NCBI RefSeq assembly: GCF_014290175.1
Contig: NZ_JACOOR010000004.1
Location: 186,001-250,000, forward strand
Length of the DNA stretch: 64,000 nucleotides
Direction: 5' to 3'
Origin: Anaerosacchariphilus hominis
GTDB taxonomy: Bacteria; Bacillota; Clostridia; Lachnospirales; Lachnospiraceae
This document shows, one piece after another, positions 18,765 through 38,683 of the stretch; position 1 is the first letter of the stretch; each line of letters opens with the position of its first letter. The position numbers and the translations under genes are program-made. The notes below the pieces were generated by a model. That model was not told the origin of the DNA and made no database searches. It worked only from the letters and a program-made list of their open reading frames with translations.

Positions 18765-18793
18765 ACAAAAGGTATTTAAAGGAGGAAATTCAA

Positions 18794-19228: not shown

Positions 19229-19255
19229 ATCTCTGACCCGAAAGGCGGAATCGAT

Positions 19256-19564: not shown

Positions 19565-19586
19565 AGTGAAAAGGAAGGTGAGCGCA

Positions 19587-20174
19587 ATGACGACAGAAGA
19601 AAAACTGCAGCATTTTACGACTTACGCCATGGAAGAGGCGAGACATAAAAGCGACGTCATGATCCGCGAATATACCGATGCGATGCAGAAGATTTTTGAG
19701 GAGCATCAGGAGAAAAAGCGTCGTCAGGAGGAGCTTGAGATCAAGACAGAAACGGATCGTCTGATCCGCGAGAATAACAAGCAGTTCTCCGAAGAACAGA
19801 TAGAGATTAAGAGAACCTTAAGCAAAAAGCAGGATGAACTGAAAGAAAAGCTTTTTGTGGAAGTAAAGGATCTGCTGGCCCGTTTTGCGGAGACCAGGGA
19901 GTATCATCAGATGCTGGTGAACCAGCTCCGTGAGGCCAGAGAATTTGCGGGTGGAGATGAGGTCATCCTGTACATTGACCCATCTGACGCCCAGAAGAAG
20001 TTCAGCATTGAGACAGAAGTAGGAGCACCGGTGACGGTCAGCGAATACTCCTTCCTGGGCGGAACACGCGCCGTATTGCCGGGCAGAAATATTCTCATCG
20101 ACAATTCCTTTGAGAGTAAGCTGGCAGAGGCAAAGGAGAGCTTCCAGTTAAAAGGAGGAGCAAACCATGAGTAA
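19587..20174 (+). CDS. ntpE: V/A-type ATPase subunit E
   Basis: A 195-residue peripheral-stalk subunit: a long charged N-terminal helix (about 10-110, KKRRQEELEIKTETDRLIRE...) and a globular C-terminal domain (about 115-195, VILYIDPSDAQKKF..., LGGTRAVLPGRNILIDNSFE). The ATG at 19587 is chosen because ggaaggtgag precedes it; the frame is open from a GTG at 19566, one base after the ntpG stop. It overlaps ntpA by 8 bases. Confidence 0.93.
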   Translation: MTTEEKLQHFTTYAMEEARHKSDVMIREYTDAMQKIFEEHQEKKRRQEELEIKTETDRLIRENNKQFSEEQIEIKRTLSKKQDELKEKLFVEVKDLLARFAETREYHQMLVNQLREAREFAGGDEVILYIDPSDAQKKFSIETEVGAPVTVSEYSFLGGTRAVLPGRNILIDNSFESKLAEAKESFQLKGGANHE

Positions 20175-21936: not shown

Positions 21937-21951
21937 GGGGAGGAAGAGAAA

Positions 21952-23331
21952 ATGTCAATTGAATATTTAGGCTTAAGTGAAATCAACGGCCCTCTGATTG
22001 CCCTGGAAGGCGTACAGAACGCGTCCTACGAGGAGATCGTAGAGATTACGGTGGACGGCAATAAAAAAGAGCTGGGCCGTATCATCGAGTGCTATAAGGA
22101 TAAGGCGGTTATCCAGGTATTCGGCGGAACCGACAATATGTCCCTTCGCAATACTCACACCAAGCTGACAGGCCATCCCATGGAGATTGCCCTTTCCCCG
22201 GAGATTCTGGGCCGTACCTTTAACGGTATCGGACAGCCCATTGATGGTCTGGGAGAGATTGTCTCCGATATTCACCGGAACGTCAACGGACAGCCGCTGA
22301 ATCCGGTAACCCGTGAGTATCCGCGTAACTACATCCGTACCGGATTCTCCGCCATTGATGGCCTGACCACTCTGATTCGTGGACAGAAGCTGCCGATTTT
22401 CTCCGGAAACGGTCTGCCCCATGATCAGCTGGCAGCACAGCTGGTAAAGCAGGCTTCCCTGGGCGATGATTCCGATGAACAGTTCGGTATCGTATTCGCA
22501 GCCATGGGCGTGAAGCATGATGTGGCGGATTTCTTCCGACGGGCCTTCGATGAAAGCGGAGCTTCCGAACACGTTACTATGTTTATGAACCTGGCAAATG
22601 ACCCGGTGGTAGAGCGTCTGATCACACCCCGTGTGGCTCTGACCGCTGCTGAGTACCTGGCCTTTGAGTGCAACATGCATATCCTGGTCATCCTGACGGA
22701 TATGACTTCCTTTGCGGAGGCCATGCGTGAGGTATCTTCCTCCAAGGGAGAGATTCCTTCCAGAAAGGGTTACCCGGGCTACTTATACAGTGAGCTGGCT
22801 ACCATCTATGAACGGGCCGGCATCGTAGAAGGCGTCAATGGTTCTGTGACACAGATTCCGATTCTGACCATGCCCAACGATGATATTACCCATCCGATTC
22901 CGGATTTGACCGGTTACATCACCGAGGGTCAGATCGTACTGGATCGTGAGCTTCACGGTCAGGCGGTTTATCCGCCCATCAGCGTGCTGCCGTCCCTGTC
23001 CCGACTGATGAAGGATGGTATCGGTGCCGGTTATACCCGTGAGGATCATCAGGATCTGGCGAACCAGCTGTTCTCCTCCTATGCGAAGGTGGGAGACGCG
23101 AGAGCCCTGGCATCCGTTATCGGTGAGGATGAGCTGTCACCCATCGATAAGAAGTATCTGCAGTTTGGTAAGGCTTTCGAGGCCCGTTTTGTAGGCCAGG
23201 GTCCGGAGGAGAACCGTACCATCGAGGAGACCCTGAATATCGGCTGGGAGCTTCTCGGCATGCTGCCGAGAGAGGAACTGGACCGTGTGGATACCAAGAT
23301 TCTTGATAAATATTATAAGCCGGCAGAATAA
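21952..23331 (+). CDS. ntpB: V/A-type ATPase subunit B
   Basis: A 459-residue non-catalytic nucleotide-binding subunit. The P-loop position is the normal degenerate form [11 protein letters not shown] near 150; the arginine-finger region ([20 protein letters not shown] near 268) and the C-terminal helical domain are present. It starts 15 bases behind ntpA with ggggaggaag upstream. Confidence 0.97.
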
Positions 23332-23365
23332 TGTAAACCGAGTTTTTTAAGAAGGAGGAAGCTGT

Positions 23366-23980
23366 ATGGATAACAATGCAGTTCCTACAAAAGGCAACCT
23401 CATACGCGCGAAGAACTCCCTGAAGCTGGCAAAGCAGGGCTATGAGCTGATGGACAAGAAGCGGAATATTCTGATCCGGGAACTGATGGGTCTGGTGGAT
23501 CAGGCCAAGGATATCCAGGCCGAGATCCGCACCACTTTCACCACCGCCTATGCGGCCCTTCAGAAGGCCAACATGGAGCTGGGCATCAATGCCGTGGCCG
23601 ACGTGGCCCGGAATGTGCCCATCGAGGACAGTGTGGAAGTGAAGACCCGAAGCATCATGGGCACGGAGATTCCTCTGGTCCGCTATGACGCGGCCACCCG
23701 CGCTCCGGCCTACGCCTTTTACAGTACCAAGGAGTCTCTGGATATCGCCCGGGTTTCCTTCGAGAGGGTAAAGGATCTGACCATCAAGCTGTCCGCAGTG
23801 GAGAACTCCGCTTACCAGCTGGCGGCCAATATCAAAAAGGCCCAGAAACGCGCCAATGCACTGAAGAACATCACGATCCCCCGCTACGAGGCGCTGACCA
23901 AGGACATTTCCAACGCCCTGGAGGAGAAGGAACGTGAGGAGTTCACGAGACTGAAGGTTATTAAGAGGATGCATTCATAA
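23366..23980 (+). CDS. ntpD: V/A-type ATPase subunit D
   Basis: A 204-residue central rotor shaft made of two long helices (about 5-75 and 125-195), with the conserved TKGNLIRAKNSLKLAKQGYELMDKKR start. It completes the nine-gene order F-C-I-K-G-E-A-B-D. A terminator follows directly. Confidence 0.96.
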   Translation: MDNNAVPTKGNLIRAKNSLKLAKQGYELMDKKRNILIRELMGLVDQAKDIQAEIRTTFTTAYAALQKANMELGINAVADVARNVPIEDSVEVKTRSIMGTEIPLVRYDAATRAPAYAFYSTKESLDIARVSFERVKDLTIKLSAVENSAYQLAANIKKAQKRANALKNITIPRYEALTKDISNALEEKEREEFTRLKVIKRMHS

Positions 23981-24224: not shown

Positions 24225-25184
24225 ATGGCGAACGAAACATCAAACAAGATCGTAGTAATTGGAGCTGGAAATGTAGGAGAGACAATCTGCTATACCCTGA
24301 TGCTGCGGGCACAGGTAGGAGAGATTGTTCTGGTAGACTTAAACGAGGATCGTGCGAAGGGAGCCGCTCTGGATATCTCACACGGAACCGCATATTACAG
24401 CCAGGTGCGTGTGCGCCAGGGTGGTTATGAAGAGTGTGCGGACGCAAAAATCATTATCGTGACCGCAGGCGTTCCGAGAAAGCCCGGCCAGACCCGTCTG
24501 GAGCTTGCAAAGGTAAATACCGGTGTGGCGAGAAGCATTGCGAAAAATATCATGAAATACGCAAAGAATCCGCTGATTATCGTAGTATCCAATCCGGTAG
24601 ATGTGAATACCTATCTGATCCAGAAAGAGACAGGTCTTCCCAAGGAAAGAGTCATCGGAACCGGTACATCCCTTGATACCGCCCGTTTCCGTTATCTGCT
24701 GGGCGAGCGCGTAAAGGTAGATATCCGCGACATCCAGGGTTACATCCTGGGCGAGCACGGGGACACCCAGGTACCCATCTGGAGCAGCGTCAATGTGGCA
24801 GGTGAGACCATCGACCACTTCCTGCCCGCTGATGAGAAGGAAAAAGAGCAAGTGAAGGAGCAGATCGCCATGAAGGCAAAGACCGGCGGCGCAGACGTTA
24901 TCTCCCTGAAGGGAGCTACCTTCGACGGTATCGCCATGTCCACCTTCCGCATCGTAGAGTCTATTCTGAAGAACCAGAATACTGTACTTCCGGTGGCGCA
25001 CGTTCTGGGTCAGGAATATGGCGAGAGCCTGGAAGGCTCCTGCATCAGTATCCCCTGCGTAGTCAACGAAGAGGGTATCGCGAAGACCATCAAGATCACC
25101 ATGACCGACGAAGAGAGACAGCAGGTAGAGCATTCTGCGGAAGTCCTGAAAGCTTTCATCGGCGATGTTATGAAGGAAGACTAA
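24225..25184 (+). CDS. mdh: malate dehydrogenase of the LDH-like clade (could be L-lactate dehydrogenase)
   Basis: A 319-residue NAD-dependent 2-hydroxyacid dehydrogenase: Rossmann motif GAGNVGE near 12, catalytic GEHGDTQVPIWS near 180. The substrate-specificity loop reads AGVPRKPGQTRLEL; the residue that is Gln in lactate dehydrogenases (AGANQKPGETR) is Arg, as in malate dehydrogenases and as in the LDH-like malate dehydrogenase of Clostridium thermocellum, which it resembles elsewhere (YLIQKETGLP, DTARFRYLL). The KGAT segment that LDHs also have is retained. I favour oxaloacetate to malate, which fits the fumarase and fumarate reductase genes that follow. It is monocistronic, with tandem Rex-like sites at the promoter and a terminator behind. 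An automatic annotation would probably say ldh. Confidence 0.75.
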   Translation: MANETSNKIVVIGAGNVGETICYTLMLRAQVGEIVLVDLNEDRAKGAALDISHGTAYYSQVRVRQGGYEECADAKIIIVTAGVPRKPGQTRLELAKVNTGVARSIAKNIMKYAKNPLIIVVSNPVDVNTYLIQKETGLPKERVIGTGTSLDTARFRYLLGERVKVDIRDIQGYILGEHGDTQVPIWSSVNVAGETIDHFLPADEKEKEQVKEQIAMKAKTGGADVISLKGATFDGIAMSTFRIVESILKNQNTVLPVAHVLGQEYGESLEGSCISIPCVVNEEGIAKTIKITMTDEERQQVEHSAEVLKAFIGDVMKED

Positions 25185-25204
25185 GAAAATTGCAGCAATA
25201 ACCA

Positions 25205-25238
25205 GCCGGGGAGCGCGGAAAGGAAGGCGCTCCCCGGC
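25205..25238 (+). terminator. intrinsic terminator after mdh
   Basis: A 12-bp perfect GC-rich stem (gccggggagcgc 25205-25216 with gcgctccccggc 25227-25238), then gtttgtttt. Confidence 0.9.
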
Positions 25239-25265
25239 GTTTGTTTTATCCCCATTTCACTCTAA

Positions 25266-25514: not shown

Positions 25515-26339
25515 ATGGTGTACAGCTATTATCCGGGCTGCACGTTAAAGAACAAAGCCCAGGACCTGGATCGATACGCCAGAATGTCCGCGGAAGCTCT
25601 CGGCTTCACCCTTCAGGAAATCGAAGAGTGGCAGTGCTGCGGAGCCGTCTATCCGCTGGCATCCGATGAGATCGCCACAAAGCTGTCCGCAGTCCGCGCC
25701 CTGAACGACGCGAAAGAAAAGGGACAGGATCTGGTGACCCTCTGCTCCGCCTGTCATCACGTCATCAAGCGTGTAAACGACGACATGCAGAATGTGGAGG
25801 ATATCCGCACCAGAGCCAACAATTATCTGAAGCTTGAGGAACCCTACGAGGGAGAGACTAAGGTTCTTCATTATCTGGAAGTTCTTCGCGATCGCGTAGG
25901 ATTTGACACCATCAAAGAAAAAGTAACCCATCCCCTGACCGGACGGAAGATCGGCGCGTACTATGGCTGTATGCTCCTTCGGCCCAGCTCCATCATGGCC
26001 TTTGACGAGCCGGAGAATCCTACTATTATGGAGGATTTTATCCGTGCCCTGGGCGCGGAGCCGGTGGTATATCCTTACCGGAACGAGTGCTGCGGCGGCT
26101 ATGTATCCTTAAAGGACAAGCCCCTGGCCGGCACCATGGTAGACCGTGTCATGGAATCTGCTGTCTGTCATGGCGCGGAAGAGTTGATTACTGCCTGTCC
26201 TCTGTGTCTCTATAACCTGAGAAACAGCGGAAGCGCAAAGAAGGTTCCGGTCACTTATCTGACAGAGATTCTGGCGGAGGCACTGGGATTACTTCCAGAA
26301 AAAGAAGCGGAAGGAGGAGCAGAGCATGCAGAAGGTTGA
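25515..26339 (+). CDS. hdrB: heterodisulfide reductase subunit B-like protein
   Basis: A 274-residue protein with two complete CCG (Cx_n-CCG-x_n-CxxC) domains: Cys9, Cys41-Cys42, Cys77, Cys80, and Cys152, Cys192-Cys193, Cys228, Cys231. In HdrB each set binds a noncubane [4Fe-4S] cluster that reduces a disulfide. It heads the operon, with aaaggaggtag before the ATG at 25515, and overlaps hdrC by 14 bases. In methanogens HdrB reduces CoM-S-S-CoB, which this organism should lack; in bacterial Flox-Hdr systems the proposed acceptor is DsrC, and no dsrC is seen here. Its acceptor may therefore be the fumarate reductase subunits encoded at the other end of the operon, or another disulfide. Confidence 0.92.
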   Translation: MVYSYYPGCTLKNKAQDLDRYARMSAEALGFTLQEIEEWQCCGAVYPLASDEIATKLSAVRALNDAKEKGQDLVTLCSACHHVIKRVNDDMQNVEDIRTRANNYLKLEEPYEGETKVLHYLEVLRDRVGFDTIKEKVTHPLTGRKIGAYYGCMLLRPSSIMAFDEPENPTIMEDFIRALGAEPVVYPYRNECCGGYVSLKDKPLAGTMVDRVMESAVCHGAEELITACPLCLYNLRNSGSAKKVPVTYLTEILAEALGLLPEKEAEGGAEHAEG

Positions 26340-26718
26340 TATGGCAAAGGCCGACAGACTTCGTGAGATGAGCGGCGTCAATACCCGGAAATGTATGAAA
26401 TGCGGAAAATGTTCCGCCTCCTGTCCCGCCTATGAGGAGATGGATATCCGTCCCCATCAGTTCGTTTCTTATGTGGAAAGCGGCGATATTGAGCCTCTTC
26501 TGGAGTCCAAGAGTATCTGGAAATGTCTTTCCTGCTTCGCCTGTGTGGAGCGCTGCCCGAGAGACGTAAAGCCTGCGAAGCTCATCGAGGCGGTACGGCA
26601 GATGGTAGTACGTCAGCGGGGAGGCAATTACTTAAGTCCCAACGAAGTGCCGGAGTTACTGAACGAGGAACTGCCCCAGCAGCTTTTAGCCAGTGCGTTC
26701 CGCAAATACAGCAAATAA
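26326..26718 (+). CDS. hdrC: heterodisulfide reductase subunit C-like ferredoxin
   Basis: A 130-residue protein with two [4Fe-4S] motifs, CMKCGKCSASCP near 23 and CLSCFACVERCP near 67, in the spacing of HdrC. It carries electrons from HdrA to HdrB. It begins within hdrB. RGGNYLSPNEVPELL near 98 is a helical tail. Confidence 0.92.
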   Translation: MQKVDMAKADRLREMSGVNTRKCMKCGKCSASCPAYEEMDIRPHQFVSYVESGDIEPLLESKSIWKCLSCFACVERCPRDVKPAKLIEAVRQMVVRQRGGNYLSPNEVPELLNEELPQQLLASAFRKYSK

Positions 26719-26735
26719 TCAGGAGGTGAAGAAAA

Positions 26736-28721
26736 GTGCAGAGAATAGGAGTATTTGTCTGTCATTGCGGTACGAACATTGCAGCGACGGTAGATGTCAA
26801 GCGCGTGGTGGAAGCGGCGGCGAAGGAGCCGGGCGTTGTTCATGCGGAAGACTACCAGTATATGTGTTCCGAGGCAGGACAGCTGAAAATCCGGGAGGCC
26901 ATTGAGCAGAAGCATCTGACTGGTATTGTTGTCTGTTCCTGTTCCCCCAGAATGCACGAGAATACATTTCGCCAGGCGGCAAAGCGGGCCGGCATCAACC
27001 CCTATATGGTGGAGATTGCCAACATCCGCGAGCATTGCTCCTGGATTCATAAGGATATAGAAGAAGCTACCGAAAAGGCCGTAATTCTGGCAAGAGCAGC
27101 CATCGCGAAGGTGATGCTGAATGCGCCCCTTACCCCGGGTACCAGCCAGGTGGTAAAGCGCGCCCTGGTCATTGGCGGCGGTATTGCAGGTATCCAGACT
27201 GCTCTGGATATCGCGGACGCAGGCTACGAGGTAGACATCGTGGAGAAGACCCCCAGTATCGGAGGACGTATGTCACAGCTTGACAAGACCTTCCCGACCC
27301 TGGACTGCTCCGCCTGCATCCTGACCCCGAAGATGGTGGAGGCTGCGGCCCATGAAAAAATCACCATCTATACCTACAGCGAGGTAGAGAAGGTAAGCGG
27401 CTTTGTGGGAGATTTCCATGTAGATATCCGCAAAAAGGCAAGAAGCGTAGATATGAGCAAGTGTACCGGCTGCGGCGTCTGCCAGGAGAAATGTCCGTCC
27501 AGAAAGACACCCAACGAGTTCAACCGCGGACTGAATACCCGGAGTGCCATCTACACACCCTTTGCACAGGCGATTCCCAACGTTCCTGTCATCGACCGGG
27601 AGCACTGCACCAAGTTCAAGACCGGCAAGTGCGGTGTCTGCGCCAAGGTCTGCCAGGCAGGCGCCATTGATTACGATCAGCAGGATGAAATCATTACCGT
27701 AGATTACGGCGCTATCGTCGTAGCTACCGGTTTTGACACCATCAAGCTGGATAAATATGATGAGTACGCGTACAACCAGAGCCCGGATGTCATCACATCC
27801 CTGGAGCTTGAGCGTATCATGAACGCGGCAGGACCCACCAAAGGTCATCTGGAGCGTATGTCCGATCACAAGCCTCCCAAGTCCATGGTATTCATCCAGT
27901 GCGTGGGCTCCAGATGCGCGGACAAGCGCGGCAAGAGCTACTGCTCCAAGATCTGCTGTATGTACACCGCAAAACACGCCATGCTGATTCGCGATAAATA
28001 TCCCGATGTGGACGTGACCGTTTTCTACATCGATGTGCGTACCCCGGGCAAGAACTTCGACGAGTTCTACCGCCGCGCGGTAGAGGAGTACGGCGTGCAT
28101 TACATCAAAGGCCAGGTGGGCAAGGTAGCGCCCCAGGGCGATAAGCTTCTGGTACAGGCTGCGGATCTTCTGGATAATAAGCAGATCCGGATGGAAACCG
28201 ACATGGTAGTCCTGGCGACCGCCATTGAGCCGAACCCCGACGTAAGAAAGATTGCCACCATGCTGACAGCCAGCATCGATACCAACAACTTCCTGACCGA
28301 GTCCCACGCGAAGCTGCGTCCGGTAGAGTCTCCCACAGCGGGAATCTTCTTATCCGGTGTCTGCCAGGGACCGAAGGATATTCCGGAGACCGTAGCACAG
28401 GCGGGAGCTGCCGCTGTGAAGGTCGTTGGACTCCTGGCCAAGGATCATCTGGTAACGAACCCCTGTACGGCAAAGGCTGACCCCATCTTCTGTAACGGCT
28501 GCTCTACCTGTGAGAAGGTCTGCCCCTACGGAGCGATTTCCTATGAGGACCAGCTGGTGAATGATCACGGTATCCGTGAGACAAGACGTGTTGCAGTAGT
28601 CAACAGCGCCCTTTGTCAGGGCTGCGGAGCCTGCACAGTGGCCTGCCCGTCAGGCGCTATGGACCTGCAGGGCTTCTCAAACAGACAAATTCTTGCGGAG
28701 GTGGATGCAATATGCAGGTAG
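26736..28721 (+). CDS. hdrA: heterodisulfide reductase subunit A-like flavoprotein (bifurcating FAD)
   Basis: A 661-residue full-length HdrA. It has the N-terminal domain (IGVFVCHCGTNI..., CSCSPRMHENTFRQA), a thioredoxin-reductase-like FAD fold (VIGGGIAGIQTA near 145, LDCSACILTPKM near 190), inserted clusters (CTGCGVCQEKCPSRKTP near 244, CGVCAKVCQAGA near 299) and two C-terminal [4Fe-4S] motifs (CNGCSTCEKVCPYGA near 586, CQGCGACTVACPSGA near 627). In characterised complexes its FAD splits electron pairs between ferredoxin and the HdrBC branch. The start is a GTG at 26736 behind aggaggtg. It overlaps the MvhD-like gene by 10 bases, which fits a tight complex. Confidence 0.95.
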   Translation: MQRIGVFVCHCGTNIAATVDVKRVVEAAAKEPGVVHAEDYQYMCSEAGQLKIREAIEQKHLTGIVVCSCSPRMHENTFRQAAKRAGINPYMVEIANIREHCSWIHKDIEEATEKAVILARAAIAKVMLNAPLTPGTSQVVKRALVIGGGIAGIQTALDIADAGYEVDIVEKTPSIGGRMSQLDKTFPTLDCSACILTPKMVEAAAHEKITIYTYSEVEKVSGFVGDFHVDIRKKARSVDMSKCTGCGVCQEKCPSRKTPNEFNRGLNTRSAIYTPFAQAIPNVPVIDREHCTKFKTGKCGVCAKVCQAGAIDYDQQDEIITVDYGAIVVATGFDTIKLDKYDEYAYNQSPDVITSLELERIMNAAGPTKGHLERMSDHKPPKSMVFIQCVGSRCADKRGKSYCSKICCMYTAKHAMLIRDKYPDVDVTVFYIDVRTPGKNFDEFYRRAVEEYGVHYIKGQVGKVAPQGDKLLVQAADLLDNKQIRMETDMVVLATAIEPNPDVRKIATMLTASIDTNNFLTESHAKLRPVESPTAGIFLSGVCQGPKDIPETVAQAGAAAVKVVGLLAKDHLVTNPCTAKADPIFCNGCSTCEKVCPYGAISYEDQLVNDHGIRETRRVAVVNSALCQGCGACTVACPSGAMDLQGFSNRQILAEVDAICR

Positions 28722-29152
28722 AAAATACAGAATTCAGGCCCAAAATCGTAGCGTTCTGCTGCAACTGGTGTTCCTATGCAGGCGCAGACCTGGCGGGAAG
28801 CAGCCGACTTGCTTACCCGGCGGATGTAAAGATTATCCGCGTACCCTGTTCCTGCCGTGTGAATCCGATGTTTATTTTAAGAGCTTTCCAGAGAGGCGCG
28901 GACGGAGTTATCCTCTGCGGCTGCCACCCGGGAGACTGCCATTATACAACCGGTAACTATTACGCAAGAAGACGTATGACCCTGCTCTTCTCCATGCTGG
29001 ATTATCTGGGCGTGGAAAACGGACGTACCAGAGTGGAATGGGTATCCGCGGCTGAGGGCGTAAAGTTCTCAACCACCATGAATGAGTTCGTAGCGAAGAT
29101 TCACGAGCTGGGCGAAAATGTGAGACTGGAGGATCTGCGATGCAAGGGTTAA
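28712..29152 (+). CDS. floxD: MvhD/FloxD-like [2Fe-2S] electron-transfer subunit
   Basis: A 146-residue MvhD-family protein (PKIVAFCCNWCSYAGADLAG near 10-29, IIRVPCSCRVNP near 40, GVILCGCHPGDCHY near 67). MvhD passes electrons from a dehydrogenase module to HdrA. The ATG at 28712 lies inside hdrA; the open frame continues further upstream but only as hdrA overlap. No hydrogenase MvhA or MvhG is present, so the donor here is the NAD(P)H module encoded next, as in Flox-Hdr clusters. Confidence 0.92.
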   Translation: MQVENTEFRPKIVAFCCNWCSYAGADLAGSSRLAYPADVKIIRVPCSCRVNPMFILRAFQRGADGVILCGCHPGDCHYTTGNYYARRRMTLLFSMLDYLGVENGRTRVEWVSAAEGVKFSTTMNEFVAKIHELGENVRLEDLRCKG

Positions 29153-30117
29153 TCGAGAGAGCAAAAGAGCTTCTGGCAGACGGAACCGTAGCGCAGGTTC
29201 TCGGCTGGAGAAAAGGCGATATGGGCTATGACCCGGAGCCGGCTTATTTCAAATCAGAAGAAGAATTAAAAGATTTTGTATATGACGCTTTCTGCGGCGC
29301 GAACCTGAGTAAATACATGATTGAGGCCGCAAAGCTGGAGGGAAAGACCCTCGTATTTTTAAAGCCCTGTGATACCTACAGCTTTAACCAGCTGATCAAG
29401 GAGCACAGAGTGGATCGGGACAAGACCTATATCATCGGCGTGGGCTGTCAGGGCACGCTGAAGCCGGAGAAGATCCGGGAAGCAGGCATCAAGGGAATTG
29501 AGACCGTCACCATCGATGGCGATACCCTGAAGTTCGACACCATTTACGGAGCAAAAGAGATGCCCTTCGCGGACGCGCTGCTGGAGCGGTGTAAGGTCTG
29601 TAAGGGAAAGAAGCACATGGTATACGACGAGCTCATCGGCGCAGCCGAGGACGAGGAAGCAGGCCCGGTGGGTAACCGTTTTGAGGAGGTCGAGAAGCTG
29701 GAGGCCATGAGCCCCGAGGAGCGTTTCGCCTTCTGGCAGGAGCAGCTTTCCAAGTGTATCCGCTGCAACGCCTGCCGTAACGTATGTCCGGCCTGCAGCT
29801 GCCGCAAATGTGTATTCGACAGTAATCAGTACGATACCAGCCAGAAGGCCAACGCGGCCACCTTTGAGGAGCAGATGTTCCACATCATCCGTGCTTTCCA
29901 TGTGGCAGGACGCTGTACTGACTGCGGTGAGTGCAGCAGAGTCTGTCCCCAGGGCATTCCGCTTCACCTGCTGAACCGGAAGTTCATCAAGGACATTGAT
30001 AGCTTCTACGGAGAATATCAGGCGGGAGCCGATACGGATTCCCGAGGCCCGCTGACCAACTTCACCTTCGAGGATGTGGAGCCCAGCATTGTACAGACGA
30101 GAGGAGGGGGACATTAA
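29140..30117 (+). CDS. floxC: FloxC-like protein: FrhB/FdhB-type domain plus two [4Fe-4S] clusters
   Basis: A 325-residue protein. The N-terminal half resembles the FrhB/FdhB-type domain (LVFLKPCDTYSFNQLIKEH near 69, YIIGVGCQGTL near 98). The C-terminal half has CIRCNACRNVCPACSCRKC near 207 and CTDCGECSRVCPQGI near 265. Such proteins carry electrons between a pyridine-nucleotide module and HdrA/MvhD. The ATG at 29140 is within the floxD end (13-base overlap). The assignment as FloxC is by domain type and gene order; a formate-dehydrogenase-like beta subunit is the alternative, but no catalytic formate dehydrogenase is present. Confidence 0.78.
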   Translation: MQGLIERAKELLADGTVAQVLGWRKGDMGYDPEPAYFKSEEELKDFVYDAFCGANLSKYMIEAAKLEGKTLVFLKPCDTYSFNQLIKEHRVDRDKTYIIGVGCQGTLKPEKIREAGIKGIETVTIDGDTLKFDTIYGAKEMPFADALLERCKVCKGKKHMVYDELIGAAEDEEAGPVGNRFEEVEKLEAMSPEERFAFWQEQLSKCIRCNACRNVCPACSCRKCVFDSNQYDTSQKANAATFEEQMFHIIRAFHVAGRCTDCGECSRVCPQGIPLHLLNRKFIKDIDSFYGEYQAGADTDSRGPLTNFTFEDVEPSIVQTRGGGH

Positions 30118-30119
30118 GT

Positions 30120-31172
30120 ATGTATCAGATCGCTAAGAATAAGCTGAACGACCTGTATCAGGCCATCAGTGAAAAAGAAGACTTATTTCTCCCGGTAAGC
30201 AAGGGCGGCCAGACCAATTACGGTCTGTGGACCAATGAGGCGGTGGCAGACATCGATACACTGAAGACTGTAAAATCCGGTAAGGACTGCTTCTTTCCTC
30301 AGAGCGAGGTGCTGTACAAAAGCAGACACGAGAACGGAAAAATCAGCATCGACCCCACAGAGCTTCAGAACAAGCCCTTCGTAGTATTCGGCATGCGCGC
30401 CTGCGACGTGCGGGCGGTAAAGGTCCTGGACAATGTGTTTTTAACAGATCCGGTGGACAGCTATTACGCGGCAAGAAGAGAGCATGGAACCATCGTATCC
30501 CTGGCCTGTCACGAGCCGGAGGAGACCTGCTTCTGTAAGAACTTCGACGTGGACGCAGCGGAGCCGGGAGCAGACGTGGAGACCTGGATGGTGGGAGAAA
30601 GCCTTTACTGGAAGGCTCTCACAGAAAAGGGAGAGAGCCTCACAGCCCTTGTGAAAGAAGCCCTGGCAGACTCCTTTGCAGAAGCGGGAGCAGAGGGCGA
30701 GAAAAAGGTAGAAAAGGAGCAGGCTGCAGTGCGCGGTATCATCGAGAAGCTTCCCCTTTCTCATCTTGATCTTTCCCGTTTTAAGCCGGAGAACACCATG
30801 GAGCTTTTTGATTCTCCTGCCTGGGAGGATATGTATAAGCCCTGTCTGGCCTGCGGAACCTGCACCTTTGTGTGTCCCACCTGCCAGTGTTACGACATCC
30901 GTGATTTTGACGGAGGCAAAGCCGGAATCCGGCACTACCGCTGCTGGGACTCCTGCATGTATTCTGATTTCACCATGATGGCCCACGGCAACATGCGTAC
31001 CAGCCAGCTGCAGCGGTTCCGCCAGAGATTCATGCATAAGCTGGTATACTATCCGGCCAACAATGACGGCATGTATTCCTGCGTAGGCTGTGGCCGCTGC
31101 GTCAGCAAGTGCCCGTCATCCTTAAATATTGTAAAAGTTATCAAGAAACTGGGAGGTGAGGGAAATGAGTGA
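30120..31172 (+). CDS. floxB: FloxB-like iron-sulfur subunit (AsrA / sulfhydrogenase beta family)
   Basis: A 350-residue protein of the family of anaerobic sulfite reductase subunit A and sulfhydrogenase HydB. Features are PFVVFGMRACDVRAVKVLDNVF near 88, ETCFCKNFDVDA near 138, and two [4Fe-4S] motifs, CLACGTCTFVCPTCQC near 242 and CVGCGRCVSKCPSSLN near 320. It relays electrons from the FAD/NAD(P)-binding subunit that follows. The ATG is 2 bases after the floxC stop. No sulfite reductase or NiFe hydrogenase subunit is nearby, so the Flox interpretation is preferred. Confidence 0.82.
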   Translation: MYQIAKNKLNDLYQAISEKEDLFLPVSKGGQTNYGLWTNEAVADIDTLKTVKSGKDCFFPQSEVLYKSRHENGKISIDPTELQNKPFVVFGMRACDVRAVKVLDNVFLTDPVDSYYAARREHGTIVSLACHEPEETCFCKNFDVDAAEPGADVETWMVGESLYWKALTEKGESLTALVKEALADSFAEAGAEGEKKVEKEQAAVRGIIEKLPLSHLDLSRFKPENTMELFDSPAWEDMYKPCLACGTCTFVCPTCQCYDIRDFDGGKAGIRHYRCWDSCMYSDFTMMAHGNMRTSQLQRFRQRFMHKLVYYPANNDGMYSCVGCGRCVSKCPSSLNIVKVIKKLGGEGNE

Positions 31173-32028
31173 ATGTACCTGCGGCGGACATGCAAATGAT
31201 ATCAGAGTAGACGCGCTGATTCCTATGATTGGCGTGGTAACGGATATCCGCACGGAAACTCCGGACGTTAAAACCTTCCGGGTAGTGGGAAGAGACGGCA
31301 AGAAGCTCTTTGAGCATATGCCGGGCCAGTGCGCCATGGTATCCGTTCTCGGTGTGGGCGAGGCTATGTTCTCTATTACATCTTCCCCCACCAATAAAGA
31401 ATATCAGGAGTTCAGCATCAAGCGCTGCGGAACCCTGACTGATTATCTGCATGGCATGAATGTGGGAGATGAAATCACCGTGCGCGGACCCTACGGAAAC
31501 GCCTTTCCGGTGGAGACAGCGCTCAAGAAACAGAACCTTCTGTTTATCGCCGGAGGAATCGGCCTTGCGCCCCTTCGTTCCGTCATCAATTATGTACTGG
31601 ATAACCGGGACAATTACGGTACGGTAGACATCCTCTATGGTTCCCGTTCCGCGGACGATCTGGTGCAGCTGAAAGAGATTCAGGAGGTCTGGATGAAGAC
31701 TCCGGGCGTCAATGTATATCTGACCATCGACCGGGAGCAGGAGGGCTGGGACGGCCATGTGGGCTTCGTTCCTTCCTATCTGAAAGAGATCGGCTTTGAC
31801 ACCAACAAGACAGTACTGGTCTGCGGACCGCCCATCATGATCAAGTTCGTACTGGCGGGCCTGATGGAGCTGGGCTTCAATAAGACACAGGTGTACACGA
31901 CCCTGGAGCTTCGTATGAAATGCGGTATCGGCAAATGCGGCCGCTGCAACATCGGATCTAAGTATGTATGCAAGGACGGACCGGTATTCCGCTGCGACGA
32001 GATCGATGAGTTACCCCCGGAATATTGA
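31165..32028 (+). CDS. floxA: FloxA-like FAD/NAD(P)H-binding reductase subunit (AsrB / HydG / PyrK fold)
   Basis: A 287-residue ferredoxin-reductase-type protein: FAD-binding barrel (CAMVSVLGVGEAMFSITSSP near 52-71), NAD(P)-binding domain (FIAGGIGLAPLRS near 127, VLVCGPPIMIKF near 215) and a C-terminal [2Fe-2S] motif (CGIGKCGRCNIGSKYVCKDG near 252). It is the entry point for NAD(P)H electrons. The ATG at 31165 (gggaggtg upstream) is preferred over a GTG at 31156. It overlaps floxB by 8 bases. The gap behind it holds a structured repeat before the fumarate reductase genes. Confidence 0.88.
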   Translation: MSECTCGGHANDIRVDALIPMIGVVTDIRTETPDVKTFRVVGRDGKKLFEHMPGQCAMVSVLGVGEAMFSITSSPTNKEYQEFSIKRCGTLTDYLHGMNVGDEITVRGPYGNAFPVETALKKQNLLFIAGGIGLAPLRSVINYVLDNRDNYGTVDILYGSRSADDLVQLKEIQEVWMKTPGVNVYLTIDREQEGWDGHVGFVPSYLKEIGFDTNKTVLVCGPPIMIKFVLAGLMELGFNKTQVYTTLELRMKCGIGKCGRCNIGSKYVCKDGPVFRCDEIDELPPEY

Positions 32029-32039
32029 TAGACAATGAG

Positions 32040-32165
32040 CAGTGCGCAGACAGGAAGCATCCGGCTGGCGTCGTGCTTGCACGTAAGACAGACGGAGGGT
32101 TCCTGTCTGCATAGGGCGAAGCCCTCAAGCGAGGAAAAGCGAAGCTTTTTCGAGCCTGAGCACTG
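32040..32165. repeat. structured intergenic element, copy B (inside the hdr-flox-frd operon)
   Basis: 126 bp bounded by cagtgc (32040-32045) and gcactg (32160-32165), with a second perfect 11-bp arm pair, gcagacaggaa (32046-32056) and ttcctgtctgc (32100-32110). Its core agggcgaagccctcaagcgagg and the aagcgaagcttttt hairpin match copy A at 5775-5812. More gcagtgcg/gcactgc fragments follow to about 32225. It splits the operon into an Hdr-Flox part and a fumarate reductase part. No terminator T-run and no clear promoter is seen in it. Confidence 0.7.
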
Positions 32166-32265
32166 CGGAGCAACACTCATGCAGTGCGCGTAGATGAAGC
32201 GAAGCGGAATCGAACTTGGCACTGCGGGGAAAAGGCGAAGACTGAATAGAGAAAGGATAAAGAAC

Positions 32266-32940
32266 ATGCAGGAAATGGTAAACGTATATTTCTATGGAAA
32301 AAAGTATTCCGTACCCGCTGAGCTTACCATCATGACGGCTATGGAATACGCAGGCTATAAGCTGGTGCGCGGCTGCGGCTGCCGCCACGGCTTCTGTGGT
32401 GCCTGCGCAACCATTTACAGAATCAAAGGCAATAACGAGCTGAAGACCTGCCTGGCCTGTCAGACACAGGTACAGGATGGCATGTACATCGCGACCCTGC
32501 CCTTCTTCCCGGCAGATAAGCGGAACTACGATATGGACAAAATCAGCGTAAAGCAGCGTGTGATGATGGATCTCTATCCGGAGATCTACAGCTGCATCGG
32601 CTGTAATGCCTGTACCAAGGGCTGTCCCCAGTCCCTGAACGTGATGCAGTACATTGCATACGCACAGAGAGGCGACTTTGAAAAGTGCGCAGAGGAGTCC
32701 TTCGACTGCATCGGTTGCGGTATCTGTACCTCACGCTGCCCGGCAGGTATCTCCCATCCCATGGTAGGCGTGCTGGCCAGAAGACTGACCGGAAAGTACA
32801 TCGCTCCCAAGGCAGAGCATCTGGAGAAGAGAGTAGAAGACATTCACCACGGAGCTTTCGATGATCTGATCGAGCAGATCATGGAAAAGCCCATCGAGGA
32901 AATGAAGGAACTGTACAATAACCGAGAGATTGAGAAATAG
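32266..32940 (+). CDS. frdB: fumarate reductase/thiol:fumarate reductase-like iron-sulfur subunit
   Basis: A 224-residue protein with an N-terminal plant-type [2Fe-2S] domain (VRGCGCRHGFCGAC near 34-47, LKTCLACQ near 62) and two ferredoxin motifs, CIGCNACTKGCP near 110 and CIGCGICTSRCP near 148. This is the cluster plan of SdhB/FrdB, except that both ferredoxin motifs are full four-Cys types. It equals the N-terminal half of methanogen TfrB; the C-terminal CCG domains of TfrB are absent and would be supplied by the separate hdrB. No membrane anchor gene is present. The ATG at 32266 (aaaggataaag upstream) is chosen over the longer frame, which runs through the repeat. Confidence 0.8.
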   Translation: MQEMVNVYFYGKKYSVPAELTIMTAMEYAGYKLVRGCGCRHGFCGACATIYRIKGNNELKTCLACQTQVQDGMYIATLPFFPADKRNYDMDKISVKQRVMMDLYPEIYSCIGCNACTKGCPQSLNVMQYIAYAQRGDFEKCAEESFDCIGCGICTSRCPAGISHPMVGVLARRLTGKYIAPKAEHLEKRVEDIHHGAFDDLIEQIMEKPIEEMKELYNNREIEK

Positions 32941-32954
32941 GAGGGGAGCGGACT

Positions 32955-34559
32955 ATGTATACAGCGGAAATGCTGGAATCTATTAAAAAAGTAGAGGCCA
33001 CAAGAGCACAGCGTATCGGCGTAGAGCCCAGAAGAATGACGGCAGAGGAAAAGGACGCGCTCCTGAAGGAGTTCCATCCGGACTACCGTGAAGACGGTTT
33101 CCAGGAGATCAAGGTGGGACCCAACAAGGGACAGAAGGCTCCCTACGAGCTTGGCACCCTGCTGCATTCCAACAGCCGGATTTTAAATGTACCCATTGAC
33201 TTAAATAAGGTAGATTATGACGTGGACGTGCTGATCATCGGCGGCGGCGGAGCAGGATCTTCCGCAGCTATCGAGGCACATGAGGCAGGCGCCAATGTGA
33301 TGATGGTGACCAAGCTTCGTATCGGCGATGCCAACACCATGATGGCAGAGGGCGGAATCCAGGCAGCGGACAAGGAGAACGACTCTCCCCAGCAGCATTA
33401 TCTGGACGCTTTCGGCGGCGGACATTTTGCAGCCAGACCGGAGCTTCTGCGCCGTCTTGTTATGGAGGCGCCGGACGCCATCCAGTGGCTCAACGACCTG
33501 GGCGTTATGTTCGATAAGGACAAGGACGGACGGATGATTACCACCCACGGCGGCGGAACATCCAGAAAGAGAATGCATGCCTGCAAGGACTACTCCGGAG
33601 CGGAGATTATGAGAGTTCTCCGAGACGAGGTATGGAACCGCCAGATTCCTGTGGTAGATTTTACTGCGGCGGTAGAGCTGATTAAGGATGACAAGGGACA
33701 GGCAGCAGGCGCTGTTCTTCAGAACATGGAGACCGGCGAGTATAAGGTGGCCAGAGCAAAGACTGTTATTATCGCCACCGGCGGAGCGGGAAGACTGCAT
33801 TACCAGCACTTCCCCACATCCAATCATTATGGAGCTACCGCAGACGGACTGGTCATGGGCTATCGCGCAGGAGCACCGCTTCTGTATCAGGATACCATCC
33901 AGTACCACCCCACCGGAGCTGCTTATCCGGCGCAGATTTTCGGAGCCCTGGTAACGGAGAAGGTGCGTTCCGTAGGAGCTATGCTGATCAACGTGGACGG
34001 TGAGGCCTTTATGCACCCCCTGGAGACCAGAGATGTATCCGCGGCGTCCATCATCCGTGAATGTACCGCCAGAGGAAAGGGCGTTCCCACACCCACCGGC
34101 TACGGTATCTGGCTGGATACCCCGATGATCGAGATGATTCACGGCGAGGGAACCATCGAAAAGAGAATTCCGGCTATGCTGCGTATGTTCTTGAATTATG
34201 GTATCGATATGAGAAAGCAGCCGATTCTGATTTACCCAACTCTCCATTACCAGAACGGCGGTCTGGAGATCGGCGGAGAAGGCTTTACCAAGACCATTCC
34301 GAACCTGCTGGTAGCAGGAGAGGCTGTGGGCGGTATCCACGGAAGAAACCGTCTGATGGGCAATTCCCTTCTGGATATCATTGTATTTGGCCGCAACGCA
34401 GGTAAGGCTGCAGCGAGAAAGTGCAAGGAAGTAGAGCTTGGCACCATGAACCTGAATCACCTTCAGGAGTATGCAAAAGAGCTTGAAAAGGCAGATTTGC
34501 ATACGGGACAGGTTTCTCCGATGCTGCTGCCGAATTACACCTTCGGTATGCCGAAATAA
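32955..34559 (+). CDS. frdA: soluble fumarate reductase/succinate dehydrogenase-family flavoprotein
   Basis: A 534-residue flavoprotein with FAD motif IIGGGGAGSSAA near 94. The FrdA catalytic set is complete: His318 (QYHPTG), Glu335, Arg359 (TRDVSA, the proton-donating Arg), His431 (LHYQNGG) and Arg466 (GRNRLMGNSLLD). The His that binds FAD covalently in membrane enzymes (SHT) is Asn127 (ANTMMAEGG), so FAD should be noncovalent, as reported for thiol:fumarate reductase. The ~85-residue N-terminal extension is unusual. L-aspartate oxidase has a similar fold and residues, but the iron-sulfur partner upstream and fumarase downstream favour fumarate reduction. It starts 14 bases behind frdB with aggaggggag. 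Confidence 0.82.
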   Translation: MYTAEMLESIKKVEATRAQRIGVEPRRMTAEEKDALLKEFHPDYREDGFQEIKVGPNKGQKAPYELGTLLHSNSRILNVPIDLNKVDYDVDVLIIGGGGAGSSAAIEAHEAGANVMMVTKLRIGDANTMMAEGGIQAADKENDSPQQHYLDAFGGGHFAARPELLRRLVMEAPDAIQWLNDLGVMFDKDKDGRMITTHGGGTSRKRMHACKDYSGAEIMRVLRDEVWNRQIPVVDFTAAVELIKDDKGQAAGAVLQNMETGEYKVARAKTVIIATGGAGRLHYQHFPTSNHYGATADGLVMGYRAGAPLLYQDTIQYHPTGAAYPAQIFGALVTEKVRSVGAMLINVDGEAFMHPLETRDVSAASIIRECTARGKGVPTPTGYGIWLDTPMIEMIHGEGTIEKRIPAMLRMFLNYGIDMRKQPILIYPTLHYQNGGLEIGGEGFTKTIPNLLVAGEAVGGIHGRNRLMGNSLLDIIVFGRNAGKAAARKCKEVELGTMNLNHLQEYAKELEKADLHTGQVSPMLLPNYTFGMPK

Positions 34560-34600: not shown

Positions 34601-35764
34601 ATGGGGATTATTACATGGTTTCAGGAGATGGTATTATCCAATACGCTGATGATGGTATTTTTGATCGCCGTCATCGGGTATCTGGTAGGTAGTATTAAGA
34701 TTTGTGGTCTGGAACTGGGGACTGCCGGCATTTTGCTGGTAGCCCTGGTATTCGGCCATTTTGGAGTAGAGATTCCCTCCCTGGTCAGGGAACTGGGACT
34801 TATCTGCTTTGTAACTTCTGTGGGATTTATTGCGGGGCCGAAGTTTTTCCGGAATTTTAAAAATAACGCCACGTCCTATATTTTGCTGGGATTAATTGTG
34901 ATCGGCGCGGGAGCGCTGACCTGTGTGGCGATTATTAAAATCTTCGGAATCCCCACAGACATCTCGGTGGGGATGATGACCGGAGCCCTGACCAGTACAC
35001 CGGGATTGGCAGCGGCCCTGGAGGCCACCGGCTCAGACGCGGCTTCGGTGGGCTACGGAATCGCTTATCCCTTTGGTGTGGTGGGCGTGGTACTTTTCGT
35101 GCAGCTGATTCCGAAAATTCTGAAGACAGATATGGCTGCGGAGCGGGCTCAGTTTGAGGCGGCGGCAGGCGTGGATGTGGCAGAGTTCCACAAAACGAAG
35201 AAAGAAGAGTTATTTTATGCGGACAGTATGGGATTTTTCCCCTTTTCGCTGGCCATTGCCATCGGAATTATTCTGGCGAAGATAGAGATTCCCCTTCCGG
35301 GCGGAGCAGTGTTCTCGCTGGGCACTTCCGGTGGACCGCTGATCGCAGGTCTGCTTCTGGGCCATTTCGGCCATTTTGGAAAGCTCAGTGTGCAGGTGGA
35401 GAAGCACGTACTGGAATGCCTCAGGGAGTTTGGCCTGGCACTGTTTCTTCTGGGAGCGGGTTCCCAGGCGGGGGCCGGCTTTGTGGAGATCCTGAAAGAG
35501 CATGGAGCGCTTCTGTTCCTGTATGGAGCGCTGATGACGCTGGTGCCAATGCTGCTGGGCTATATATTCGCGGTGAAGGTATTACATCTTTCCCTCTTCA
35601 ACACTCTGGGTTCCATCTGCGGCGGTATGACCAGTACCCCGGCTCTGGGAACTCTGATTCGAGTGACGGAGACGGACGATGTGGCCAGCGCCTATGCAGC
35701 CACCTATCCCATCGCGCTGGTGGCCATCGTACTGGCCAGCCAGTTTATCAGTATCTTCCTATAA
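34601..35764 (+). CDS. AAE-family (AspT/SucE-type) transporter, probable dicarboxylate exporter
   Basis: A 387-residue protein with ten or so membrane segments built as two related halves; each has the STPG/STPA motif of Asp-Al_Ex domains (GALTSTPGLAAALEA near 128, GGMTSTPALGTLIRV near 345). The central RCK/TrkA_C domains found in AspT and YidE are missing; only a short charged loop (about 168-205) is present. Family members exchange aspartate for alanine or, in Corynebacterium SucE, export succinate. Its place between fumarate reductase and fumarase supports succinate export or dicarboxylate exchange. The start ATG is 41 bases behind frdA with a gggg ribosome site, so it is probably in the same operon. 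Confidence 0.82.
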   Translation: MGIITWFQEMVLSNTLMMVFLIAVIGYLVGSIKICGLELGTAGILLVALVFGHFGVEIPSLVRELGLICFVTSVGFIAGPKFFRNFKNNATSYILLGLIVIGAGALTCVAIIKIFGIPTDISVGMMTGALTSTPGLAAALEATGSDAASVGYGIAYPFGVVGVVLFVQLIPKILKTDMAAERAQFEAAAGVDVAEFHKTKKEELFYADSMGFFPFSLAIAIGIILAKIEIPLPGGAVFSLGTSGGPLIAGLLLGHFGHFGKLSVQVEKHVLECLREFGLALFLLGAGSQAGAGFVEILKEHGALLFLYGALMTLVPMLLGYIFAVKVLHLSLFNTLGSICGGMTSTPALGTLIRVTETDDVASAYAATYPIALVAIVLASQFISIFL

Positions 35765-35840: not shown

Positions 35841-36683
35841 ATGCGTGAAATTAAAGCTTCCGAGATCACAGATGTGGTAGAACGTCTGTGTATCGAGGCC
35901 AATGAGCAGCTTCCGGAGGACATCAAAGGTGCCATCCGCCGCTGCAGAGCGTGTGAAGACTGGGAGACAGCCCAGGGAGTTCTGGACAAGATTATTGAGA
36001 ATTTTGAGATCGCGGGGGAGGAGCATGTACCCATCTGTCAGGACACAGGTATGGCATGCGTGTTCCTGGAGATTGGTCAGGACGTACATATCACGGACGG
36101 CGATCTGAGAGAGGCTGTGGACGAAGGCGTACGCCGAGGTTACGGCAAGGGATATCTCCGGAAGTCTGTAGTGAAGGATCCGGTGCGCCGGGGCAATACC
36201 GGGGACAATACACCGGCCATGCTCTATACAGAGATCGTTCCGGGCGAGCAGATCAAGGTAACAGTAGGACCCAAGGGCTTCGGAAGTGAAAACATGAGCG
36301 CTATCCGGATGTTCAAGCCTTCTGCAGGCATCGAGGGAATCAAGAGCTTTATTCTGGAAACTGTGGAGGCAGCAGGCCCGAACCCCTGTCCGCCCATGGT
36401 AGTAGGCGTAGGTATCGGAGGAACCTTTGACAAGTGTGCCCTGTTGGCAAAGAAGGCCCTCATGCGGAACACCGAGGAGCCTAATCCGGATCCCTATTAC
36501 GCAGATCTGGAAAAAGAAATGCTGGAGAAAATCAACGGGCTGGGTATCGGACCCCAGGGCTTCGGCGGCAAAACCACCGCACTGGCTCTGAATATCGAAA
36601 CCATGCCCACCCATATCGCAGGTATGCCCTGCGCGGTAAATATCAACTGTCATGTGACACGCCATAAGACGGAGGTGATCTAG
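35841..36683 (+). CDS. fumA: class I fumarate hydratase, alpha subunit
   Basis: A 280-residue N-terminal (catalytic [4Fe-4S]) subunit of two-subunit fumarase. Cluster ligands are Cys66 (PICQDTG), Cys183 (NPCPPMVVG) and Cys270 (NINCHVTRH). It interconverts malate and fumarate with the beta subunit that follows. L-tartrate dehydratase has the same architecture, but the neighbouring malate dehydrogenase and fumarate reductase point to fumarase. The ATG at 35841 has ttggaggtgac upstream. It is oxygen-labile by type, fitting a strict anaerobe. Confidence 0.9.
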
Positions 36684-36684
36684 G

Positions 36685-37245
36685 ATGGAAAGACATATTC
36701 AGCTGCCTCTGACCGAGGAGCTTGCCAAGACCCTGCACGCAGGCGACAGCGTGTATCTGACCGGAACCATCTATACATCCAGAGACGCGGGACACAAGCG
36801 CATGTGTGAGGCTCTGGCGAGAGGCGAACAGCTTCCCTTTGATCCCACGGACGCCACCATTTACTATGTGGGTCCCACGCCGGCCAAGCCGGGTCAGGTC
36901 ATCGGAAGCGCCGGACCGACTACCAGCGGACGTATGGACGCTTACGCACCTACCATGATGAGCGTGGGCGCCAGAGGCATGATCGGCAAAGGCGCGAGAT
37001 TACCGGAAGTGGTGGAAGCCATGAAGAAGTATCACGGTGTTTACTTTGGTGCCATCGGAGGAGCAGGGGCTCTTCTGGCGAAATGTATTAAAAAATGTGA
37101 GCTGATCGCATATGAGGATCTGGGCGCGGAAGCGCTTCGGAAGCTCTATGTGGAGGATATGCCTCTCGTAGTTATTATTGACAGCGAGGGAAATAATCTG
37201 TATGATGAGGGAAAAGCTGCTTATCTGGCAAGCAAAAAGAACTAG
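36685..37245 (+). CDS. fumB: class I fumarate hydratase, beta subunit
   Basis: A 186-residue C-terminal-domain subunit (IGSAGPTTSGRMDAYAP near 71, MMSVGARGMIGKG near 91, YFGAIGGAGALLAKC near 118). It completes the active site with the alpha subunit. The start is one base beyond the alpha stop, with a near-perfect ggaggtgat ribosome site. The symbol marks the subunit, not the E. coli isozyme FumB. Confidence 0.9.
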   Translation: MERHIQLPLTEELAKTLHAGDSVYLTGTIYTSRDAGHKRMCEALARGEQLPFDPTDATIYYVGPTPAKPGQVIGSAGPTTSGRMDAYAPTMMSVGARGMIGKGARLPEVVEAMKKYHGVYFGAIGGAGALLAKCIKKCELIAYEDLGAEALRKLYVEDMPLVVIIDSEGNNLYDEGKAAYLASKKN

Positions 37246-38611: not shown

Positions 38612-38683
38612 GGTCGATTGGTCAAGCGGTTAAGACGTCGCCCTCTCACGGCGAAAACAGGGGTTCGATTCCCCTATCGACTG
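38612..38683 (+). tRNA. tRNA-Glu (anticodon CTC)
   Basis: A complete 72-base cloverleaf: acceptor ggtcgat/atcgact (first pair G-T), D stem gtc/gac, anticodon stem tcgcc/ggcga with loop ctctcac (anticodon CTC, reading GAG), 4-base variable loop, T stem agggg/cccct with ttcgatt loop, discriminator G. CCA is not encoded and must be added. It is transcribed alone. Confidence 0.95.

Follow-up and report, generated by a model that had tools for sequence, protein, structure and literature searches.

The "succinate operon" of Pseudoclostridium thermosuccinogenes is described as comprising genes for fumarate hydratase, Flx-Hdr, fumarate reductase, and a putative succinate transporter (PMC7282089). An electron-bifurcating fumarate reductase was proposed by Koendjbiharie and van Kranenburg in a 2019 preprint cited in that paper, in which the operon is reported to be approximately 4-fold up at low CO2, with significance not reached for every subunit (PMC7282089). 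In tubeworm symbionts and Thioflavicoccus, flxABCD-hdrABC is reported to be interspersed with tfrAB and korABCD, and for the symbionts it was suggested that Flx-Hdr forms a complex with TfrAB and OGOR (PMC6315080). Here we examined a 64,000-nucleotide stretch of Anaerosacchariphilus hominis DNA (contig NZ_JACOOR010000004.1, positions 186,001–250,000; this whole stretch is referred to as the window), on which nine plus-strand genes arranged as hdrBCA-floxDCBA-frdBA were located at 25515–34559, flanked by a malate dehydrogenase-like gene on one side and by permease and fumarase genes on the other. The seven Hdr and Flox products are of the same subunit types as FlxABCD-HdrABC of Desulfovibrio vulgaris, which Ramos et al. 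reportedly described in 2015 as an NADH dehydrogenase/heterodisulfide reductase; unlike in that system, frdBA belongs invariably to the present block, and DsrC was found over its cut-off in none of 34 relatives. Methanogen TfrAB, which uses CoM-SH and CoB-SH, also joins FrdA- and FrdB-like parts to an HdrB-like part, but TfrB is a single fused chain, whereas HdrB, HdrC, and FrdB are separate here and NADH is the likely donor. The quinol:fumarate reductases (FrdABCD and the MFR SdhABE) share the FrdA fold and catalytic residues, and MFR also has an HdrB-like subunit, SdhE, the model of which scores 139 bits with the present HdrB. In contrast to those enzymes, the block contains no anchor gene, menA was over its cut-off in 0 of the 34 relatives, FrdB has two 4Fe-4S motifs, and a non-covalent FAD is expected.

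The locus most resembles the P. thermosuccinogenes operon, as fumarase, Flx-Hdr, fumarate reductase, and a transporter are encoded together in both and the same mechanism is proposed; according to locus tags, and compared by description, the fumarate hydratase lies at the Flx-Hdr end in that species, whereas the fumarase follows frdA and the permease here (PMC7282089). With the tubeworm symbionts and Thioflavicoccus it shares the adjoining of Flx-Hdr and fumarate reductase, for which direct electron delivery was suggested; these differ in their autotrophic reductive tricarboxylic acid setting, their OGOR genes, and a fumarate reductase named TfrAB (PMC6315080). The initial annotation of the window knew of no characterized enzyme with this exact set, and none was found in the open-licence literature searched, though this hypothesis and this type of operon have been published before (PMC7282089). 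That paper was the sole one found there on Flx-Hdr, fumarate reductase, and succinate together, and no biochemical test of bifurcation by an Flx-Hdr fumarate reductase was found in the same literature. The block in the window is a further, well-conserved example of an already proposed kind of enzyme. Added here are its genome-wide linkage, three gene orders, the lack of DsrC, menA, and b558-type sdhC over cut-off, a malate-type Arg in two malate dehydrogenase lineages, and modular relatives.

We consider it probable, at roughly 65%, that the nine products form or act as one cytosolic system that splits the electrons of NADH between ferredoxin and fumarate, seemingly with no need of quinones. 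The initial annotation had proposed such a bifurcating NADH:fumarate reductase. There is good support for its core, in which Hdr-Flox couples NAD(P)H to fumarate, from the gene order, the co-occurrence, the three arrangements, the cofactor motifs, the pathway neighbors, and the lack of menA, b558-type sdhC, and DsrC over cut-off; the bifurcation is suggested by HdrA homology and thermodynamics.

The presence of all nine genes on one strand was confirmed by the open reading frames (ORFs) and by Pfam and NCBIfam profile scans of the window proteins, with which the gene names agree, indicating that the block is real. The names also fit PDB sequence searches for seven of the nine proteins (FrdA, HdrA, HdrB, FrdB, HdrC, FloxD, and FloxA). 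HdrB (25515–26339) carries two complete CCG (noncubane 4Fe-4S) motifs (PF02754, twice) and matches the solved HdrB chains 8rvv_B and 5odc_B; its scores with TIGR03288 (142 bits) and the MFR SdhE model (139 bits) are both below the cut-offs, and all 10 motif Cys are kept in 63 of 63 sequences. HdrC (26326–26718) has two 4Fe-4S sites and matches 9sfi_E and 5odc_C, its 8 Cys being kept in 59/59 sequences. HdrA (26736–28721, GTG start), with FAD and 4Fe-4S clusters, is the candidate bifurcation site, as it aligns over its full length with the solved bifurcating-type 5odc_A (E = 8e-204) and retains the FAD domain and cluster motifs. It reaches 791 bits with the HdrA2 model NF040770, below the cut-off of 1100, and its motif Cys, from which the ligand Cys were assigned, are conserved in 64 sequences. 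FloxD (28712–29152) is MvhD/FlpD-like (PF02662, 182 bits; 5odc_D, E = 2e-49), and its probable start is the ATG at 28712, the listed TTG ORF beginning at 28613. FloxC (29140–30117) is a 4Fe-4S protein with a Fer4 dicluster, in which 15 of 16 Cys occur in 70/70 sequences and C52 in 69/70. FloxB (30120–31172) is a 4Fe-4S protein like sulfhydrogenase beta or AsrA (PF17179; NF040829, 170 bits, below cut-off), and FloxA (31156–32028, GTG start) is an FAD/NAD(P)H and 2Fe-2S subunit (PF00175, PF10418) that resembles the sulfhydrogenase gamma subunit (9nez_C, E = 2e-54). The initial description of these genes as overlapping or nearly touching is true of the Hdr-Flox genes (at most 17 nt apart). In addition, frdB and frdA are at most 14 nt apart, the exception in the block being a 237-nt interval between floxA and frdB.

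FrdB (32266–32940 from its probable ATG start; the listed ORF begins at 32194) carries one 2Fe-2S and two complete 4Fe-4S motifs according to Pfam, NCBIfam, and the PDB search, and the 2Fe-2S and dicluster Cys are kept in 111 of 111 sequences. Neither a 3Fe-4S pattern nor, in Pfam and NCBIfam, a CCG domain match was found in it. FrdA (32955–34559) is a flavoprotein with an 85-residue N-terminal extension, for which a full fumarate reductase active site had been claimed; indeed, the dicarboxylate site H318, T334, E335, R338, R359, H431, and R466 is present in all 81 close sequences. In a further alignment of 35 sequences reaching down to 54% identity, the site is invariant except for T334 (at least 90%). 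These residues, which serve catalysis and dicarboxylate binding in the FrdA/SdhA superfamily, were also placed by alignment to solved SdhA, and the protein has the fumarate reductase fold. Asn127 occupies the position of the covalent-FAD His in 81/81 and 35/35 sequences, and the FAD of FrdA is expected to be non-covalent. No match to the C-terminal SdhA domain was obtained for FrdA, and its VIA-align matches mostly cover residues 68–527, leaving the first 67 residues outside. The best model for FrdA is TfrA at 330 bits, below the cut-off of 718. In the comparison with tfrAB that the initial annotation named, the TfrB model spans FrdB, HdrC, and HdrB; FrdB itself has no fused CCG domain and matches only the N-terminus of that model, below cut-off. 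The identification of FrdA as an L-aspartate oxidase was rejected (NadB model, 262 bits against a cut-off of 452.75; the context is succinate fermentation). Among 7999 scored proteins, the best 120 homologues of FrdA were all at least 84% identical, and a protein named for Laedolimicola intestinihominis is 98% identical.

The conservation of the hdrBCA-flox-frdBA order across genomes, named in the initial annotation as a point to check, was borne out. Among 80 FrdA loci fetched, 57 had at least 7.6 kb of upstream DNA and 23 had too little; the nine genes stand in this order in 57 of the 57 eligible loci, more than chance would explain, and each of these encodes hdrA, hdrB, hdrC, and floxA–D together. 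A class-level sample of 245 genomes, drawn from the class of genome G003 (locus L021), contained an FrdA-like match with E < 1e-20 in 128 genomes. The FrdA family of the block was found in 34 of them at 66–85% identity, reaching residue 1 or 2 (in two pieces in G202), and the other FrdA-like proteins, among the matches listed, do not exceed 43% identity and start no earlier than residue 57. HdrA (E < 1e-80) was detected in 37 of the 245 genomes, at 65% identity or more in 34. Both proteins are present in 33 of the 35 genomes having either, and the two genes share one contig in 30 of these 33, lying 4.6–6.2 kb apart by low coordinates with some HdrA matches partial; they are on different contigs in the other 3. 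In the two exceptions, G038 with HdrA only and G077 with FrdA only, the contig breaks off within the block, and neither assembly yielded the missing partner at another place. For this co-occurrence, Fisher's test gave 1.4e-38, although genomes are not independent samples. Blautia glucerasea (L009) is among the carriers of the whole nine-gene block.

The genomic context was evaluated for the 34 FrdA-carrying relatives of the window rather than for its own genome. No MenA was over cut-off in any of the 34, with two weak hits below it, nor was a b558-type SdhC (one weak hit; other anchor types were not searched), and no membrane anchor gene lies within the block. A quinol-linked enzyme was considered and rejected on this lack of MenA and b558-type SdhC over cut-off. 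DsrC was over cut-off in none of the 34 genomes (one weak hit) and in 0 of 6 in a separate scan. An [FeFe]-hydrogenase was over cut-off in 32 of the 34 genomes, only a fragment being found in G020, and each of the 34 has at least one of RnfC and [FeFe]-hydrogenase. This indicates that reduced ferredoxin is plausibly usable in all of them.

From these features, FloxA would take a hydride from NAD(P)H, probably NADH, and pass the electrons through the iron-sulfur centers of FloxA, FloxB, and FloxC to FloxD and on to the HdrA FAD. At this flavin the electron pair would be split: one electron would reach ferredoxin via the C-terminal clusters of HdrA, and its partner would travel by way of HdrC, the noncubane HdrB clusters, the 4Fe-4S and 2Fe-2S centers of FrdB, and the FAD of FrdA to fumarate. 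The net reaction would be 2 NADH + fumarate + oxidized ferredoxin → 2 NAD+ + succinate + reduced ferredoxin. The step from HdrB to FrdB is plausible, since the TfrB model covers FrdB, HdrC, and HdrB in successive parts and HdrB scores nearly equally with the SdhE model (139 versus 142 bits). Malate dehydrogenase and fumarase would feed this system, the permease may export succinate, and the reduced ferredoxin would be consumed by Rnf or [FeFe]-hydrogenase. Potentials given as −320 mV for NAD and +33 mV for fumarate (E0′; PMC5861303) and as −400 to −500 mV for ferredoxin (PMC12773636) lead, by simple arithmetic, to a rough standard energy of about −33 to −53 kJ/mol for 2 NADH + fumarate + ferredoxin.

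Relatives in other ARRANGEMENTS were sought in a phylum-level draw of 398 genomes. FrdA with E < 1e-100 was found in 39 of them, 38 besides G003 at 52–66% identity, and 35 of the 39 have HdrA with E < 1e-60. In total, 20 distant loci from 19 genomes, plus four extensions, were read. Hdr genes adjoin frdA in 9 of the 20, and the full set is present in 4. All nine gene types occur as hdrCBA-floxDCBA-frdBA in L131 (G500) and as frdBA-hdrBCA-floxDCBA in L120, L126, and L136 (extended as L138–L140; genomes G301, G305, and G343) as well as in L141 of G255, which lies outside the 20 loci; a likely aspartase stands beyond frdB in L120. Other arrangements are partial or different. L121 has hdrCBA, a 1076-residue HdrA/Qmo-like protein (5555–8785, by Pfam), floxD, and then frdBA; similar hits occur in L123 and L127, and this long protein is possibly a further donor type. 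L124 and L125 read fumAB-hdrCB-frdBA, and G293, from which L124 comes, carries a complete hdrCBA-floxDCBA set at another place without frd (L142:7755–14569), so that both may share an HdrBC-type link. The frdBA genes adjoin pyruvate carboxylase in L118, and L119 has an ORF of equal length there. In L122 (7176–9516) and L128, FMN_bind/4Fe-4S proteins are found close to frdBA, accompanied in L122 by a NapC-type multihaem cytochrome, which suggests a cytochrome-linked form of this fumarate reductase; cytochrome b561/4Fe-4S proteins lie near frdBA in L133 and L134. Genome G339 has two FrdA copies of the family (L128 and L129), and the copy in L129 has no nearby frdB match and adjoins an AtuA-family gene.

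In an FrdA tree of 37 rows, 21 of which carry all nine gene types, the three gene orders occupy three positions. Four changes of the full-set label are required, which may be gains and losses mixed. The varied loci and this tree indicate that FrdBA behaves as a module that occurs both without Hdr-Flox and attached to it in different ways. With nearly even chances of being right, we tentatively view the FrdBA family, with its 85-residue extension, non-covalent FAD, and two-4Fe-4S FrdB, as a portable soluble fumarate-reducing head that may have been joined more than once to input modules, namely the full Hdr-Flox set in three orders, a set with the Qmo-like long HdrA, HdrBC alone, and a cytochrome or FMN type. 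The noncubane clusters of HdrB would be its commonest docking partner, and in gut Lachnospiraceae the head would be fixed in an NADH-driven bifurcating form that replaces quinone-based fumarate respiration. Such a modular view of the family was not found in the open-licence literature searched.

The initial account of the locus gave the nine genes correctly and omitted three neighboring elements. Upstream of hdrB lies a malate dehydrogenase-like gene of the lactate/malate dehydrogenase (LDH/MDH) family (24225–25184, plus strand; Pfam Ldh_1_N/C), which scores over cut-off with both an NCBIfam LDH model (352 bits) and the MDH model PRK06223 (299 bits). It has Arg at the position that sets malate over lactate, as do all 44 MDH-type sequences beside hdrB, the window included. 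An MDH/LDH-family protein was extractable upstream of hdrB in 43 loci, 4 with the window type (77–84% identity) and 39 with another type (35–40%). NCBIfam assigns the window type to L-lactate dehydrogenase, so that this position may have received a malate enzyme on two occasions, and the two lineages at the same place look like convergent replacement. A terminator-like hairpin with a 12-bp perfect stem and a T-rich tail (25205–25246, plus strand; RNA fold of 25195–25250, −30.7 kcal/mol, z −5.1) stands between mdh and hdrB, so that mdh may be a separate transcript. Downstream, on the plus strand, are an AspT/YidE/YbjL-type permease (34601–35764; PF06826, 263 bits; TIGR01625), a candidate succinate exporter, and the alpha (35841–36683; NF004885, 417 bits) and beta (36685–37245; NF005310, 286 bits) subunits of a class I fumarase, both over cut-off. 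Of 73 loci with sufficient DNA, 37 have the permease directly behind frdA, and both fumarase subunits follow at a distance of no more than 4.5 kb in 50 of 59 loci. NCBIfam identifies subunits I, A, B, and D of a V-type ATP synthase in a cluster at 16791–23980, directly upstream of the succinate genes, and a tRNA gene (38612–38683; Rfam RF00005, 64.6 bits) lies downstream of them, the only match in an Rfam scan of 18000–40000. A direct-repeat search of the window gave nothing informative for the block.

Several observations weigh against a single bifurcating NADH:fumarate system. Bifurcation is not readable from a sequence, and one cluster motif of HdrA has a five-residue insertion relative to 5odc_A. 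RnfC was over cut-off in only 17 of the 34 genomes (partial, weaker matches include G013 and G204), and Rnf ion pumping is evident in only half of them. In the window, a structured spacer of 237 nt (32029–32265; fold z −3.4 for 32029–32150; no Rfam match) parts frdBA from floxA, whereas in 109 loci, the window among them, the gap has a median length of 19 nt and is at most 60 nt in 86. Among the distant loci, 11 of 20 have no Hdr genes beside frdA, and no HdrA match (E < 1e-60) was obtained in G316, G319, G537, or G617, all of which carry FrdA. Furthermore, L118, L119, and L137, which keep frdB and come from genomes with no HdrA match, nest inside the main Hdr-linked clade, L137 on a long branch. 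FrdA with the same site and the same extension thus occurs without adjacent Hdr genes, in four cases in genomes without detectable HdrA, so that other donors must exist. The limit on reading bifurcation from sequence and the RnfC count would also suit one soluble NADH:fumarate reductase that sends both electrons to fumarate and loses the energy, or that bifurcates loosely, and a simply NADH-dependent fumarate reductase is used in one Blautia luti fermentation model (PMC12773636). However, HdrA retains ferredoxin-type motifs at its C-terminal end and can be aligned along the entire solved HdrA, a relay of nine subunits would be costly for the task of a simple flavoprotein, and RnfC or [FeFe]-hydrogenase gives reduced ferredoxin a use in all 34 genomes (a fragment only in G020); we regard an enzyme without splitting as unlikely.

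The spacer, the FrdA homologues in genomes without an HdrA match, and the separation of the full Hdr-Flox set from the frdBA-hdrCB locus in G293 could be read as signs of two co-regulated but separate machines, with Hdr-Flox bifurcating to an unspecified disulfide and FrdAB being fed by ferredoxin, flavodoxin, or another donor; elsewhere, Hdr-Flox has been proposed to reduce a DsrC-type disulfide (PMC4215793). This arrangement is quite improbable in view of the missing DsrC (0/34), the joint presence of FrdA and HdrA in 33 of 35 genomes, the three gene orders that unite the same nine genes, and the 19-nt median gap between floxA and frdB. A thiol could instead link the halves as in methanogen TfrAB, HdrBC handling a low-molecular thiol/disulfide and FrdAB reducing fumarate with the thiol, and this would accord with the below-cut-off matches of FrdA to TfrA and of FrdB to the TfrB N-terminus and with the retention of both CCG motifs in HdrB. 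The CCG domain is the part of TfrB for thiols, however, and FrdB has no match to it; a free thiol pair would, moreover, discard part of the potential gap needed for bifurcation, and such a link appears very unlikely. Running in reverse, namely succinate oxidation with reduced ferredoxin as input (confurcation), is a use for which we see hardly any likelihood: Hdr-type bifurcation is reversible in principle, but FrdA does not have the His that binds FAD covalently, a residue that E. coli FrdA requires for succinate oxidation, and the neighboring genes, with pyruvate carboxylase in L118 among them, suit a reductive branch of fermentation.

Succinate is a product of many gut Clostridia, and in the carriers examined no menA was over cut-off, which raises the question of how they gain energy from fumarate. 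One model in a Blautia luti study of 2026 uses a simply NADH-dependent fumarate reductase (PMC12773636), while B. glucerasea has the nine-gene block. The conserved unit makes the question of bifurcation directly testable in cultivated gut species. If the system is bifurcating, fumarate reduction would conserve energy through ferredoxin, and models of gut fermentation would then predict other yields of ATP and hydrogen.

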